A stretch of 64,000 bases of DNA from the NCBI GenBank assembly GCA_946699065.1, contig CAMPDV010000109.1, forward strand, positions 248,001-312,000, written 5' to 3'. The position numbers and the translations under genes are program-made. This stretch comes from Loxodes magnus. Taxonomy: Eukaryota > Ciliophora > Karyorelictea > Loxodida > Loxodidae. Below the pieces are notes generated by a model that saw nothing but the letters and a program-made list of their open reading frames with translations, made no database searches and was not told the DNA's origin. Positions 26,299-41,730 of the stretch are shown here, piece by piece; the first letter of the stretch is position 1, and the number at the start of each line of letters is the position of its first letter.

Positions 26299-28963
26299 TC
26301 ATATGAGCGCTTACCTTAAGAAATAAGATACTATATTAGATATTTAATGCTTAAATTGTACAAATAGAGTAGTGTCTTACTACTTTATATTAAGAAGGTT
26401 TATTATATGGTAAATTAATGTAAGATATATTTAAATTAACAAATTGACTAATTAAATAAAATTACTTCTCTGGAATTTCAGCATTTGCTTAGCTTGATTC
26501 TTCTTATCATTTATATTTCTCTCTAGTTACTTTAAAAATTGCTTGTGATTCTTAAATTCGTAGTTACTGTTTAGAGTTTAAAGGGGCATATTTTTGAGAC
26601 TCTTTTATCCTGAATTCTACGCTACTATATTTCTAGTATTTGACTTTAAATTTATAAGCTTTTTCCTTTGAGGCTGCGGCGTTTGAGGTTTTTACACAGT
26701 AAGTGAGTTGCATAATGAAGGTTTTTCGTTAGATACAAATGTGTTATTTAGAGAGTTGATGTTGTTATATGAGAAATTTTGCATATTCGAGTTTTCATAA
26801 TGTAAGGCACATTCATTTTTACTAATATTGATTGGCTATCTTCCTTAAGAACTAAAGCTATTTTCTCTCCTTTTTTACAACGATTGGTCTCTTTACAACA
26901 TAATTCTTTGTGCATTCTGCTAATTTCAGTCTTTTTTAGGCCTAAGCTTTGTAAAAGTTTACTCATTTCTGTATAAAATATTACCCTATAATAAAGCCCT
27001 TTGTTTTTAAGTTATAAGCGTCTACTACTTGATTAATAGTTAATACCTTTGGCTCAACTTGCTTTACTTATTATTACTTCTACTACTATAGCTACTGTTA
27101 TTTTTGTTCTTGCTGTTATTAATATTGAGTGGTTTAAGGTTTAAACTTGAAACTATGCTAAATATTATACAAGCTGTGCAAATTGTCTATATCTAAATGT
27201 AGTTAGTTCTATATTAATTAGTATTGCTTTTCACTACTCTTACATATTGGATTCCTTAACTTTTACTAGAATTGAGGCTAAGAGCTCTCTTATTGCTTTA
27301 TCTCTCTCTAGTTAAAACTTTCATTTTACTTCTCGTTATTCTTTTACGAAAGTAAATAGGATCTTGTTTTATTAAGGGGAATTTCAGACTCACCTTCATG
27401 TTAGAATATATGCAGTTTCTAGGAAACTGGCTAAAATTACTGAGATTGCTTAGATAATACTTTATTATGCATTTTCTGCTTCTATATTAGTATCATTCTT
27501 TTCTATTCGTCTATCTTTATCTAAATTTAATCTCGCTTTGACTTGTTTACTTTTGAGCCTTAGAAATTCAAAAATATTTCCTTTGACTTTAACAGAAGTT
27601 AATTATAGAGTTCTTACTTTCCAGCATCACTTGCAGGAAATATTTGAGTAAAACCTCCTATGTGTCGTTGTTCGTATTTTTACCTTTACACTTAATAGTT
27701 CTTAATGTCTTCTTCTTTGTTCTCCTATCTCTACTACCTAGTTAGCATGCTTATCATTCTCTTTCTAATAATTTCCATCTAATGTTGGTGATACTTTTTC
27801 CTATTTTTATGAGATACATTAATAAGTGAAAGGGAGTCCTATATTACTGCCTTCTTTATCCTCTTATCTAGAGGAGTATCAATTGAAAAACTGGGAGAAT
27901 GATTTACTTCCAGTAGCCAGGGCTTATGCTTTTAGTCTATCAAAATATCAAATCCAAGAATTTCAAAACACATAGAATTAGTGATATCATCTGGTTAGCA
28001 TGATCTGTAGACATGGGATATAGAAGGTTAGGCTAGAATGATAGTTTTTACTACAATATCCTTTAATTTTTCGATTAGCAAATCACAATCAACTCCATAT
28101 TCTCTAAGGTATTTTCAAGTAGACTCAAGACTTCGCTTATGCCCTTTATCCTCATCATCAACTGATAAATTGAACAAAAATTTATGGCTAAACTTGTTTA
28201 TTGAGTAGTTAGTCAAGTGCATAAATTAATTATCCTGATTATTCTAGTTTGGCTCTAAATAATACTCAGTAGCTAGTCGACAAAGTCCTTCTTTATGTAA
28301 GAACAGCTTAAGTGGATCACAACCTATCATTAGAACATATATCCTCAGATCAAATTTATGTCCATCTATGAGTAATGGATTCTTAATATATTTTTAAGCC
28401 ACCATTATTTATTAAGGGTCAATAGGTTGAAGATCATCTATTTTGTTTATTATATAAATACCTCGGCCTTAGCATTAGTCAGGTGGTTTTAATATATAAT
28501 ACCTATTGTTCTTGTCTTTCTAAAGCTAATTTCTAAAATCAAAGTATTCAGTTGGTATTATCCAAGTTTTAGGTGCAAAGTTATATTCTTTGGGATACAA
28601 TTTACGCATTTTTTTAATATTCTTAGCTAGGCAATTTTTTCTATAAATTCTGTACATTTCTGGAAAGTGATTGACTTTTTGGTATGGCTTCATTCGTTGC
28701 AATTTTTCAGTGAGAATAGTAGTGTCTATCCATTATAAATCCCAATCCTCATCATCTTCTGAGTGGCTAATTTTCCATCTGAATGTCTATTTAGCGATTT
28801 ATTTAATAATCTCATACTAAGTATAGCGAATATTTATCACTATCTTTTTCCCCTTCTTTACTACTTTTTAATAATCTAATCCAAGCTACAAATCTTACGA
28901 AGAACTCTGCTACTCCACTATGATATCTAATTCTTTTTTACCTTCGCAATTATTACTTTCCAT
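26299..28963 (-). CDS. Tubulin polyglutamylase, TTLL6/11/13-like
   Basis: One 16-nt intron (26969-26984, GTAATATTTTATACAG) joins two frames to 882 residues ending at TGA 26299-26301. The TTL domain fills residues ~35-390: NIRYTQYE, KPYQKVNHFPEM, the ATP-grasp lysine motif ILKPPDQCQGRGIYI (about 156), DLRIYVLM, LATEYY, the QFMHLTNYSINK motif, CFEILGFDILID and KPWLLEVNHSPSFS. The CQGRGI form and the order of motifs resemble the long-chain-elongating polyglutamylases TTLL6/11/13 acting on axonemal tubulin. The remainder is Q/K/N-rich and probably a microtubule-binding tail. The recognisable sequence ends around 26460 (FQRSNFI, then TAA); the frame stays open for another ~50 codons of intergenic-looking sequence before TGA, so the true end is uncertain. 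The Trp in SLESTWKYL is TGA. Confidence 0.9.
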
Positions 28964-29507
28964 ATTTCTCACTTTTATCTTTTTCAAAATTTATCTTTAG
29001 CAACATAGAAAAAGATTGCTAGTTAATGGTAATAACATCTAGTAATTTAAGTAGTAAATAAGCTTATAATTAATTGCCATTCTTGTATTGGTAATTAATA
29101 CCCTTAAATCCTTTAGGTTATATAGTCAAACAATGTGCATCTTGAAATGCCAATATGCTAGTTTGCCAAGTTCAAATATATAGGATCTATCTTGAGATGA
29201 AAATACTCAACTGATAATAAAATGTTTGGATATAATAGCTGTAATAAGCACCATCATACTTTAAATGGCTACTAAGCATTTCTATAATCCATACTATATT
29301 AACTTAACTTTGTTCAGCATTACCAATATTATAAATCTTGCTTCAATATACTAAACCAAGAGACTCTTCACCAGAAGATAACTAGCACGAGAGTTAATTT
29401 AAGATACCTTATTATAAAGCTAAATCTTATTGTATATAAACATAAAAATAAAGCGACTTAATAAAATATCTTACAGATTAATTATACTAGTATACTTAAG
29501 TAATAAA
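28964..29507. other. Divergent intergenic region
   Basis: The spacer between the TTLL start (minus) and the membrane-protein start (plus). It probably contains both promoters; no motif recognised. Confidence 0.35.
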
Positions 29508-38313: not shown

Positions 38314-38330
38314 ATTTAAAATTGAAGAAT
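38314..38330 (+). repeat. Target-site duplication of element 1, left copy
   Basis: 17 bp (ATTTAAAATTGAAGAAT) repeated exactly at 39212-39228. It directly abuts the A-run at the element's 5' end. Confidence 0.85.
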
Positions 38331-39211
38331 AATTAAAAAAATGAAGCCTGGCTTTTTACCAAATAAAATTAGAAAGGTAAAAATTAATAAGAATCTGAAG
38401 AGAAATAGTAGAAGCAATCAAAACCTAGGTAGAGAATGTCCACACCTCCGAAGTAATAAAAAATTCCAGTTGACTAAGATCTTTCAGAAATTAATCTTAG
38501 TAAGGATAGAAATAGCTTTGAATAACTTACAGAATTAGTAAAAATTTTGCTTAATGAGGTTAAAAAGCTTAAGGAGTAAAATCAAATATTGATAGAGAAT
38601 CGTGAAAACGTAGAAGATAGATTAATTAAATAAGAAAGAGGAATGGATGCCTATTGAAATATTTAAACTTACTGCTCTTAGTAAATATAGTAAATGAAAT
38701 TAGACTCATAATCATAATTAATTAAATAAACAGAACGTGCATAATAGTCAGAACCAATTGCGATAATGGGGCAAAATCAAATTTAAGAATAATTTTAAAA
38801 CAATTAGCAAGGTTGTCAAATGGAAATTGAAAAAAGACCAAAAATTTATCAGAATACAATGAAGAGTAGAAAGTGTTATTACTGCAAGAAAAAAGGACAC
38901 TAATACAAATAGTGTAGAAACTTCTATGTATTCAAGAATGAATTTAATTAGAGAGTTAAGAGACTGACAGAAAGAATTTATATTACTGAGAGAGGATCTA
39001 TTTATCAAATTAAAGAGACAAGCGCCAAAAGAGAAGATGTAAGGTAGATGGATGAAAGATGGAGAGAGATGAGAAATACAAGATTTAAGACAAGAAAAAA
39101 TAGAAATGAAACAATAAACTTTTCTTTTTATTCACCAGACTATTCTGGTTGGAAAGAGGGAAATTGGTGAAAATCCAAGAAGACCTCTAATCAATTTTAT
39201 CTATTATTATT
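38331..39211 (+). mobile_element. ORF1-only non-LTR-type retroelement, copy 1
   Basis: An 881-bp insertion between two exact 17-bp direct repeats. It begins AATTAAAAAAATG and ends with an (ATT)n tail of about four units, which merges with the right duplication. It encodes a coiled-coil/CCHC protein and nothing resembling reverse transcriptase or endonuclease. A target-site duplication of this length, a simple-repeat 3' tail and the absence of terminal repeats are hallmarks of target-primed reverse transcription. It is related to the copy at 40290-41257 in layout and protein. The overall arrangement is like the mammalian half-LINE HAL1 (ORF1 without ORF2), though no relation by descent is implied. 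Confidence 0.85.
38436..39170 (+). CDS. Gag/ORF1-like protein of element 1 (coiled coil plus CCHC knuckle)
   Basis: 244 residues from ATG 38436 to TGA 39168-39170. A coiled coil (about 25-75: FEQLTELVKILLNEVKKLKE...) is followed by a Q-rich spacer and a CCHC zinc knuckle, CYYCKKKGHQYKQC (C147, C150, H155, C160), then a basic tail with a TERGSIYQIKE motif. Copy 2 aligns as ERGMDAYWNI versus ERDLNASWNI, as QMEIE, and as GSIY(Q/K)IK. Trp74 is TGA here and TGG in copy 2. The family start probably lies at ATG 38341 (MKPGF, matching FKSGF in copy 2) but in another frame, so this copy seems to carry an early frameshift or indel and may be decayed. Expected role: RNA binding/nucleic-acid chaperone in an RNP. 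Confidence 0.8.
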
Positions 39212-39228
39212 ATTTAAAATTGAAGAAT
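39212..39228 (+). repeat. Target-site duplication of element 1, right copy
   Basis: An exact 17-bp copy of 38314-38330, immediately after the (ATT)n tail. Confidence 0.85.
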
Positions 39229-40273
39229 TAAGAATTTCAAAGCAAACAGCCAACAGATTGGAAATGTTCATAGATAATCCAGTTAAGACAATTTATTTAG
39301 CAAAGCGGTAATATTATAACAGTTTAAGAAGATAGTTGTCTAATGAATTAAAGTATATTATTTTCCAGCATATCTATAAACTTATAATTATAAATTATTT
39401 AAAATATTAAAGCATTAAATAAAGAAAATAGAAGCTAGAATGAAATGGATTTGATATTAAGGGAATGTCTCATATTAAATATCTGAATGCTTTATATTAT
39501 ATCTTCAAATGATGAAAAAACTCAATGTTATGATCTTTCTACTATATTCATACTAAGCCATATATATTACACTGATTATATAATTTTAAATATTTAATAT
39601 AAATTAGCAAAATGTAGTATTAAAGCTCCTAAGGATATATTTTTATATTAATCATATTATATACTTCATTACTGAAGATACTCAGATAGCTTATCTCTAA
39701 ATATATGCTCCACATTTAGTTTAAAGAGGAACTATTAAAACCTTAATTACATTTACTAAAGTTAAGATATCTTTAACAAGGATAATTGCTAAGGAAATAT
39801 TTGCATAAAGCTGAAAATATTTAAATGATGACAGCAAAGTTCCTATAAATATAGATTCTATACAATACAAGTACATATAAATCTAATAAATTATAAAGAC
39901 TAGCTATTTAATCATGAAGAGCGTTAAATGAAAAACAATAAAATCTAATGTATAATTATTACTAGAGTAGAATAAAACCTATTTAGAACTAGAATCAACT
40001 ACTCCTTTAAATTAATACACCTAAAGTTAATAACTAAGATATATTTTTAAATGAATAAGGAAATAGTGTAAGCATTATATTTATATTAGCTTCTTCCTTT
40101 TAGAATACTTACTTTTTGTAAGGAAATTTGACTAGCGTATTGAAGTAAAATTTTTAAGCTATTAATATAGATTTTAGTAAAGAAGGAATGCAATATCTGG
40201 TCTGGTTTGATTAGAAGTAGTAGCAAGGATAGTGTATTAATGTTGGAGGATTTAGCTATTAAACATCACATTC
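39229..40273. other. Spacer between retroelements
   Basis: AT-rich. The last ~130 bp (from about 40140) read as a coding-like frame (GMQYLVWFDQKQQQGQ near 40186) that continues up to the second element's insertion point; it may be a remnant of a disrupted gene. No other feature seen. Confidence 0.35.
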
Positions 40274-40289
40274 TATAGTAAGAGTTAGA
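40274..40289 (+). repeat. Target-site duplication of element 2, left copy
   Basis: 16 bp (TATAGTAAGAGTTAGA) repeated exactly at 41258-41273. Confidence 0.88.
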
Positions 40290-41257
40290 AAAAAAATGGT
40301 TGAAAGTTTCAAATCAGGCTTCTATATCAACTCTTCCTAAGCCAAAAAGGAAGGGAGGAAGCGAGAAACCAAGTCTTAATAATTTTAACAATCTTCTCTA
40401 TCACAACCTTAACCAACACTGAACTAACAACTTGGAATCTAGCAAAACGAACGAAAACCAACCTTGAAGAATATACACACGGAAACTCCAACCTCAAGCG
40501 AGAAACTGAGGAAACAGATGAAGTCTGTTCTCCACCAGGAGGTATCAGAGTTCAACCCTTCTGGTCAGATGAGCATGGAGTAGCTTATCAAAGTGGTACT
40601 GAACCTCCAGGAAGAGGTCAAGAGATTGAAGAAGGACAATGATATGCTGATGGCAAAGCTAGAGTTAGCAGAAGGAATTGAGTCAAGACTTATGTCTTAG
40701 GAAAGAGATCTTAACGCCTCTTGGAATATCTCACAAAGTCAGACTAACGAATCCTAAAATTAGCTTTAGAAACAGACTGAACTGGATAACAGACTCGGAA
40801 AAGTAGAAGAGAAATTGTAAACTTTTAAGAAAGAGTAAAGCGAAACTGGAGCTATACAAATGGAAATCGAAGCCTAGAAAGAGCAAACAAATCAAGGCAA
40901 ATAATTCAAAATAAAAAAGAAATGTTTCTGCTGTGCAAGCGTATGACATTTTTATCGGAAGTGTTAGAAATTCTAATAGAAATAAAGAAACTATTGGATA
41001 AAAGAACAACAAAAGAAGAAAAAAGAAGAAGCAAGAATGAAAAGAACGTATTGCAACCCGGATGGTTCAATATACAAGATTAAGATGGAATCAAGGCAAG
41101 TTAAAGGAGGGAAAACCTGGAAAAATCTGAGTTCCCAATCTCGCTAAAATTGGGCGACCCGAACTTTTATATTTAACAGCAGGGAGCATGAACTGCTGTC
41201 TTCCTGACGGGGTTGGAAATCCTAAAACGGAAAACTTAAAATTAATATTATTATTAT
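40290..41257 (+). mobile_element. ORF1-only non-LTR-type retroelement, copy 2
   Basis: A 968-bp insertion between exact 16-bp direct repeats. It begins with seven A bases running into ATG and ends in an (ATT)n tail after a short 3' region. It is clearly richer in G+C than its surroundings. A 7-bp-stem hairpin (ACAGCAG...CTGCTGT, 41176-41199) lies just before the stop and may be a reverse-transcriptase recognition structure. It encodes only the gag-like protein. The intact frame and exact duplications suggest a younger insertion than copy 1. The missing enzymes must come from an autonomous LINE elsewhere in the genome (inference). Confidence 0.9.
40296..41207 (+). CDS. Gag/ORF1-like protein of element 2
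   Basis: 303 residues from the ATG adjoining the 5' A-run to TGA 41205-41207. Residues 1-75 are basic and Q/S/P-rich. A coiled coil spans about 94-185 (MEQLIKVVLNLQEEVKRLKK and onward). The zinc knuckle CFCCASVWHFYRKC (C210, C213, H218, C223) has its Trp217 encoded by TGA. A basic tail carries YCNPDGSIYKIK. The layout (disordered basic region, coiled coil, CCHC knuckle) is that of LINE ORF1/gag nucleocapsid proteins that trimerise and coat RNA. It uses the host code fully (TAG/TAA as Gln, TGA as Trp), so the element is adapted to this lineage. Confidence 0.9.
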
Positions 41258-41273
41258 TATAGTAAGAGTTAGA
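41258..41273 (+). repeat. Target-site duplication of element 2, right copy
   Basis: An exact 16-bp copy of 40274-40289 directly after the ATT tail. Confidence 0.88.
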
Positions 41274-41385: not shown

Positions 41386-41403
41386 TATTAGCCATGTATA
41401 TAT
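41386..41403 (+). repeat. Target-site duplication of the 309-bp insertion, left copy
   Basis: 18 bp (TATTAGCCATGTATATAT) repeated exactly at 41713-41730. Confidence 0.88.
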
Positions 41404-41712
41404 TAATTTATTTCAACTAAAAAGATTTTGGACCGGAAACTCCTTTCCGATTGCACGACCCGACGCTCTCTTTTTATGGAATAATGGGGATATCCTGTTG
41501 TGCTTCAGGCACAGCTGCTAGGGAGCTCCATCGCTATGAGCAGCCAGGTTTCAAGCCCCTACCAAGAGCGGATAATCTCAAAGACAGCGTTCCCTTCAGA
41601 AAATGACTCTGACCAGGGACTTTCTCAGCGACAGGAAAGGAACTTGTTCCTAGCCATAAAACCAGAAAGCATAGTCACGACGGTTATTCTCAGATCCCAC
41701 CATCTTTTCAAT
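41404..41712. mobile_element. 309-bp GC-rich, hairpin-rich insertion (SINE-like or truncated LINE)
   Basis: Inserted between exact 18-bp direct repeats. Roughly half G+C in a region of about a quarter. It contains several perfect hairpins: CGGAAA/TTTCCG (about 41434-41451), GTGC/GCAC around 41499-41512, GCTGCT/AGCAGC enclosing a GGAGCTCC palindrome (about 41515-41563), and AGGAA/TTCCT (about 41637-41650). It shares a CGACCCGA...TTTTAT motif with the 3' part of element 2. All frames are fairly open, but I recognise no protein. A GGTTTCAAGCC segment resembles a Pol III B box, but no A box is evident. Most likely a structured-RNA-derived SINE or a 3' LINE fragment mobilised by the same machinery. 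The orientation is unknown because neither end has an A or ATT tail. Confidence 0.75.
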
Positions 41713-41730
41713 TATTAGCCATGTATATAT
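41713..41730 (+). repeat. Target-site duplication of the 309-bp insertion, right copy
   Basis: An exact 18-bp copy of 41386-41403. Confidence 0.88.

Follow-up and report, generated by a model that had tools for sequence, protein, structure and literature searches.

Two diverged families of solo-ORF1 non-LTR retroelements in Loxodes magnus, probably mobilised by LINEs

Two short insertions in the genome of the ciliate Loxodes magnus encode related Gag-like proteins, which raises the question of whether they are remnants of longer retrotransposons, processed copies of a host gene or full-length members of families of their own. The insertions, of 881 bp (el1) and 968 bp (el2), lie in a stretch of 64,000 nucleotides that was analysed as a whole (the window). 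An earlier, sequence-only reading had described each as bounded by an exact direct repeat, of 17 bp for el1 and 16 bp for el2, and these target-site duplications (TSDs) were confirmed (Table 1). Inside the TSD-bounded units no reverse transcriptase (RT) or endonuclease was found, in agreement with that reading. We consider it likely, with a probability of roughly 0.8, that each is a full-length member of its own solo-ORF1 (gag-only) family of non-LTR elements, that the two families have diverged and that LINEs mobilise them.

Table 1. Features of el1 and el2 in the window (positions are those of the window).
Feature	Position	Strand	Basis or remark
el1 left TSD ATTTAAAATTGAAGAAT	38314-38330	+	17 bp, identical to 39212-39228
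el1, copy of a solo-gag non-LTR retroelement, frameshifted in the window	38331-39211	+	881 bp
el1 gag ORF, A7-ATG to TGA (39168-39170)	38341-39170	+	broken by 1-nt deletion
el1 CCHC zinc knuckle (CYYCKKKGHQYKQC)	38874-38915	+	translation
two predicted 3' stem-loops in el1 RNA, then AATCAATTTTATC and (ATT)n	39135-39187	+	RNA folding
el1 right TSD	39212-39228	+	exact 17-bp partner of 38314-38330
el2 left TSD TATAGTAAGAGTTAGA	40274-40289	+	16 bp, identical to 41258-41273
el2, copy of a solo-gag non-LTR retroelement, open under translation table 27	40290-41257	+	968 bp
el2 gag ORF, 303 aa, stop TGA 41205-41207	40296-41207	+	open with TGA = W
coiled-coil part of el2 Gag, predicted as one long helix (residues 94-198)	40575-40889	+	AlphaFold2
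el2 CCHC zinc knuckle (CFCCASVWHFYRKC)	40923-40964	+	translation
el2 right TSD	41258-41273	+	exact 16-bp partner of 40274-40289

Both elements end in (ATT)n, as had been described, and in both an A7 run leads into an ATG (at 38341 and 40296). The predicted leader of the window copies is 10 nt long in el1 and 6 nt in el2; the predicted 3' UTR, tail included, measures 41 and 50 nt, respectively, and these stop-to-end distances fit the reported mean of the host 3' UTRs (53 bp, PMC11441545). The described start held for both elements with the qualification that in the window copy of el1 the A7-ATG and the gag ORF are in different frames, owing to a 1-nt deletion relative to copy L004. Such a deletion was found at three of the five independent el1 sites (the window copy, L006 and L008). 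An out-of-frame A7-ATG as a trait of the el1 family was rejected, since it is in frame in L002 and L004, where gag is open. No frameshift was present in the 21 el2 copies compared, which were chosen by protein score, and one of these copies carries a 9-nt insertion. Folding of the el1 3' region gave a z-score of −2.10 for 39135-39190 and of −0.89 for the last 100 nt, which weakly points to the predicted stem-loops.

The proteins of el1 and el2 are homologues, 35% identical in an alignment of 206 columns (E 2e-20), and the CX2CX4HX4C knuckle is present in both. Its residues C210 and H218 are invariant and C213 and C223 nearly invariant in the A2 alignment. El2 Gag as modelled by AlphaFold2 has a single long helix with block means of pLDDT of 80–94 over residues 91-180 and lower values beyond; for the whole protein the mean pLDDT was 58.5 and the pTM 0.23, with low confidence outside the helix. 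The heptad score was reached by 16 of 300 shuffles for el2, by 30 of 300 for el1 and by none of 300 for a third element, el3 (see below); the heptad signal is weak for el2 and not significant for el1. Pfam gave no match at 0.01 for the Gag proteins P0002 and P0003; among 19 A2 members there was no match to zf-CCHC, and the matches obtained were weak and scattered (the best, to a leucine zipper in one member, had an E-value of 0.004). A search of the protein collection for homologues of P0002 returned 574 candidates, none at E 0.01, and profile comparison of Gag with the PDB gave nothing at 0.1. In viral contigs a pattern matched in 10 stretches, none of which was confirmed.

Open frames in these elements depend on the decoding of TGA. 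The MAC assembly of L. magnus comprises 706 Mbp, and the reported genetic code is number 27, in which UGA is either stop or W (PMC11441545); the frames were read accordingly, with TAR as Q and TGA as W or stop. The in-frame TGA at the motif DAYWNI is common to all five independent el1 sites, and TGA at codon 217 is common to 20 of the 21 el2 sites, the exception having TGA at codon 214. Because the internal TGAs of el1 and el2 are common to nearly all independent sites, we read them as W. The RT frame of LINE A, an RT-encoding element discussed below, has 7–9 in-frame TGAs in nearly all of its best RT matches, and the alternative that the internal TGAs are nonsense codons was rejected on the basis of these three sets of positions. 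The mean dN/dS was 0.40 for el2 (21 copies, 210 pairs; a figure lowered by the selection of these copies on protein score) and 0.45 for el1 (5 copies, 10 pairs), which suggests constraint on the source copies. Elsewhere in the window, a tubulin-tyrosine-ligase-like gene on the reverse strand (26700-29080) contains one in-frame TGA, presumably a W position, as the karyorelict code predicts.

The 705,730,643-bp assembly was searched with both elements. The best 40 of 570 el1 candidates, the window copy included, all span at least about positions 5-878 of 881, and the 39 others among them are 95–96% identical to it. The best 127 of 17648 candidates from the el2 protein search each cover at least 290 of 311 residues. 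Both rankings favour whole copies and that of el2 also intact ones, and the lengths of the el2 protein matches were therefore left out of the evidence on truncation. With up to three mismatches, a 29-mer near the 5' end of el2 matched 1210 times and one near the 3' end 1028 times, numbers that probably include allelic duplicates, as several loci have common flanks; the reversed-pattern controls gave no matches. The 3'/5' ratio of 0.85 does not show the 3' excess that 5' truncation would give. All 21 independent el2 copies fit both 29-mers within three mismatches, and the exact 29-mer with the A7-ATG start of el2 occurs 242 times. On the contigs listed, 18 of 55 exact 5' hits had an exact 3' partner and 18 of 96 exact 3' hits an exact 5' partner, a pairing that is too sensitive to divergence to argue either way. 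The earlier argument that a shared 5' start speaks against random truncation is borne out by the el2 end counts.

These counts bear directly on the possibility that el1 and el2 have no family life of their own and derive from one ordinary LINE by 5' truncation or internal deletion. It draws support from LINE A, which has the 5' start module of el2 as well as the hairpin and ATCAA(A/T)TTTAT motif of el1. Against it stand the about equal frequencies of the el2 ends, the difference, outside the knuckle, between Gag and ORF1 in those LINE copies that were read, and the existence of at least one further diverged solo-gag family. Taken over both elements we regard this explanation as improbable; for el2 it is largely refuted by the end counts.

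The target sites were compared after 38 loci had been grouped by flank similarity into 26 independent sites (5 of el1, 21 of el2). In this sample, which is biased to good matches, the match begins at element position 1–7 at all 26 sites, and at least two ATT units were seen by eye at the 3' end of 24. An exact TSD of at least 14 bp was present at 13 of the 26 sites versus 0 of 650 mismatched left/right pairs, and one of at least 11 bp at 15 sites versus 6 of the 650 pairs. Many copies with the same A-run/ATG start and (ATT)n end and with different TSDs, which the sequence-only reading had named as support for its claim, are indeed present. Neither a continuation upstream nor an ORF2 at the 3' end, either of which it had associated with truncated LINEs, was seen at any of the 13 sites with a TSD of at least 14 bp. 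No sharing of adjoining sequence was seen among the 26 sites (flanks compared from 30 bp out), and the el1 and el2 insertions are internal, with TSDs, rather than additions to chromosome ends. Points against the solo-ORF1 reading include the 13 of 26 sites without an exact 14-bp TSD, the weakly predicted 3' stem-loops, the heptad score of el1 and the reading of el1 at only five independent sites, three of them frameshifted. Among these 13 sites, L013, L018 and L034 have repeats of 16–18 bp with one mismatch, and the remainder have short or doubtful repeats (e.g. L006, L030 and L035).

Processed pseudogenes, made by the LINE machinery that is plentiful in this genome from a host gene or from a gag gene that had become domesticated, would likewise have a short 3' UTR and an mRNA-like start just 5' of the ATG. 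Such an origin is very improbable given about 1000 matches per el2 end (allelic duplicates included), a tail of (ATT)n and not poly-A, and diverged families with a common 5' module and a dN/dS below 1 among copies. The third of the solo-gag elements, el3 (L012), has a 15-bp TSD (by eye) and a 5' module of the el2 type; its Gag is 31% identical to that of el2, and its knuckle keeps three of the four residues, the second C being Y. Another Gag-like element, with an ATT-rich end and related to a stretch in L035, is present in L040 and L056, and a degraded one in L036; these are tentatively taken as further solo-gag families.

LINEs with RT and endonuclease are abundant in the same genome, and the non-LTR elements reported for Loxodes are 5–6 kb long, with the domains Exo_endo_phos_2 and RVT_1 (endonuclease and RT; PMC11441545). 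The best-sampled LINE, LINE A, is about 5.5 kb long and encodes both enzymes. All four of its 5' ends that were read start with TATATTA6TGG and continue into a stretch that encodes VSFKKGFYTTS, the ATG being lost in one; most el2 copies start with VEGFKSGFYTTSS, and the module common to LINE A and el2 comprises the A-run, the ATG and FKxGFYTTSS. In the LINE A copy L060 the VSFKKGFYTTS stretch and the ORF1 ATG are in different frames (offset 110). At the 3' end, which was counted 4382 times, LINE A has a hairpin and ATAATCAAATTTATTTA, el1 a predicted hairpin and TAATCAATTTTATCTATTATTATT, and el3 the sequence ACTCAAATTTAAATTT; el2 has none of these end features. The hairpin and the ATCAA(A/T)TTTAT motif are common to LINE A and el1, and the tail unit is (TTTA)n in LINE A versus (ATT)n in el1 and el2. 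An autonomous LINE that ends like the elements had been named as support for the earlier reading; LINE A is similar to el1 in its 3' end and to el2 in its 5' end, and it differs in tail unit, ORF1 and TSDs.

The ORF1 of LINE A matched Gag at the knuckle only (hhalign probability 10%, E 0.003), with nothing significant in BLASTP, and in the three LINE copies of which ORF1 was read (L069-L071) the match to Gag was likewise confined to the knuckle. At 9 of 30 loci centred on the RT, which represent about 6 distinct insertions, the similarity of LINE A to L069 ends no more than 1.5 kb upstream of the RT. No adjoining TSD of at least 11 bp was found at nine LINE A sites (four complete, five truncated), a set in which three complete sites were compared on 12–24 bp of left flank, L060 is barely a test and the truncated copy L043, which is without the LINE 3' end, was left out. 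We regard it as rather unlikely that LINE A itself is the helper acting in trans: the common 5' module and the resemblance of the el1 and el3 3' ends to its own speak for this role, and the different tail unit and the TSD counts (0 of 9 sites versus 15 of 26 solo-gag sites) against it. LINE A is a relative or exchange partner of the solo-gag elements and possibly, but not clearly, their helper; a transfer of the 5' module between LINE and solo-gag elements is conceivable. Two other LINEs, L071 and L072 (LINE C), were rejected as helpers, as neither a Gag-like ORF1 nor a matching end was found in the one copy read of each.

Several observations were made at the LINE loci themselves. L072 (C910) is another kind of LINE and has a FADD-type RT, an (ATTA)n end, a CCHC-like motif near the C-terminus and, by eye, an endonuclease-like stretch; a similar C-terminal fragment was seen by eye in L036. 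L040 and L056 are LINE A copies with different truncation points that both start exactly where a diverged Gag-like element has its ATT-rich end, junctions that could reflect tail targeting or template switching. At most about 100 bp downstream of the LINE 3' end, L069 and L070 have similar protein starts, judged by eye (MASKKQQ and MSPKKQS), which may belong to another gag-like family or mark a preferred target.

If el1 and el2 are solo-ORF1 elements, each would be transcribed into an mRNA of about 0.9–1 kb, its leader very short and its 3' UTR short, and translated. Gag would coat element RNA, probably with a preference for its own, and an endonuclease/RT encoded by a LINE would recognise the 3' end of the element and its (ATT)n tail. 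Target-primed reverse transcription of the RNA at a staggered nick would then yield the TSDs, mostly of 14–17 bp. Mobilisation would thus occur in trans, through the RT of a LINE.

Elements of this kind are known, and the statement of the sequence-only reading that no such family had been described in ciliates was wrong. Paramecium has seven solo ORF1 elements, A–G, which apparently contain only ORF1 and are likely mobilised in trans (Guerin et al. 2017, PMC5405496). Like el1 and el2 they consist of ORF1 with a zinc finger at its end, and some have a simple-repeat 3' end (PMC5405496). The likeness is one of description: three of the seven Paramecium elements end in (TAAA)n, and they were described from contigs of the germline (MIC) in a ciliate from which such DNA is eliminated (PMC5405496), whereas those of Loxodes have (ATT)n tails, about 1000 matches per end and a genome reported not to be extensively edited. 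Mammalian HAL1 is likewise non-autonomous, encodes only ORF1p and arose several times; it is, however, a derivative of L1 (PMC5753468), whereas the ORF1 of three Loxodes LINE copies differs from the solo Gag. Drosophila HeT-A is another abundant non-LTR element without its own RT but is telomeric (PMC5537684), in contrast to the internal, TSD-flanked insertions of el1 and el2. A description of solo-ORF1 elements in Loxodes was not found; the terms ORF1, gag, SINE and non-autonomous are absent from the main text of PMC11441545. As far as these searches go, el1 and el2 are of a known kind that is new in this lineage, notable for number and diversity.

Transposons are reported not to be extensively cut from the somatic genome of Loxodes, and its elements therefore have to coexist with expression in the working nucleus. 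About one million interspersed repeats are reported, mostly unclassified (PMC11441545). Solo-gag families may account for part of these repeats, and their numbers make cis versus trans action of ORF1 testable by sequence evolution alone. One may go further and see in them an old, self-sustaining guild, with families about 31–35% identical in Gag, Gag under selection, a 5' module swapped with a LINE and a borrowed RT. We put this at somewhat less than even odds; if true, Gag would act in cis as the heritable identity of the element, and RT would be a common good.

A smaller insertion lies nearby in the window, at 41386-41730. It is about 309 bp long and is bounded by exact 18-bp repeats, TATTAGCCATGTATATAT (41386-41403 and 41713-41730). 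By eye it contains a B-box-like GGTTTCAAGCCCC, and similar sequences of 318–329 bp with 80–89% identity occur in the flanks of L002 and L027; from these features it looks like a SINE.
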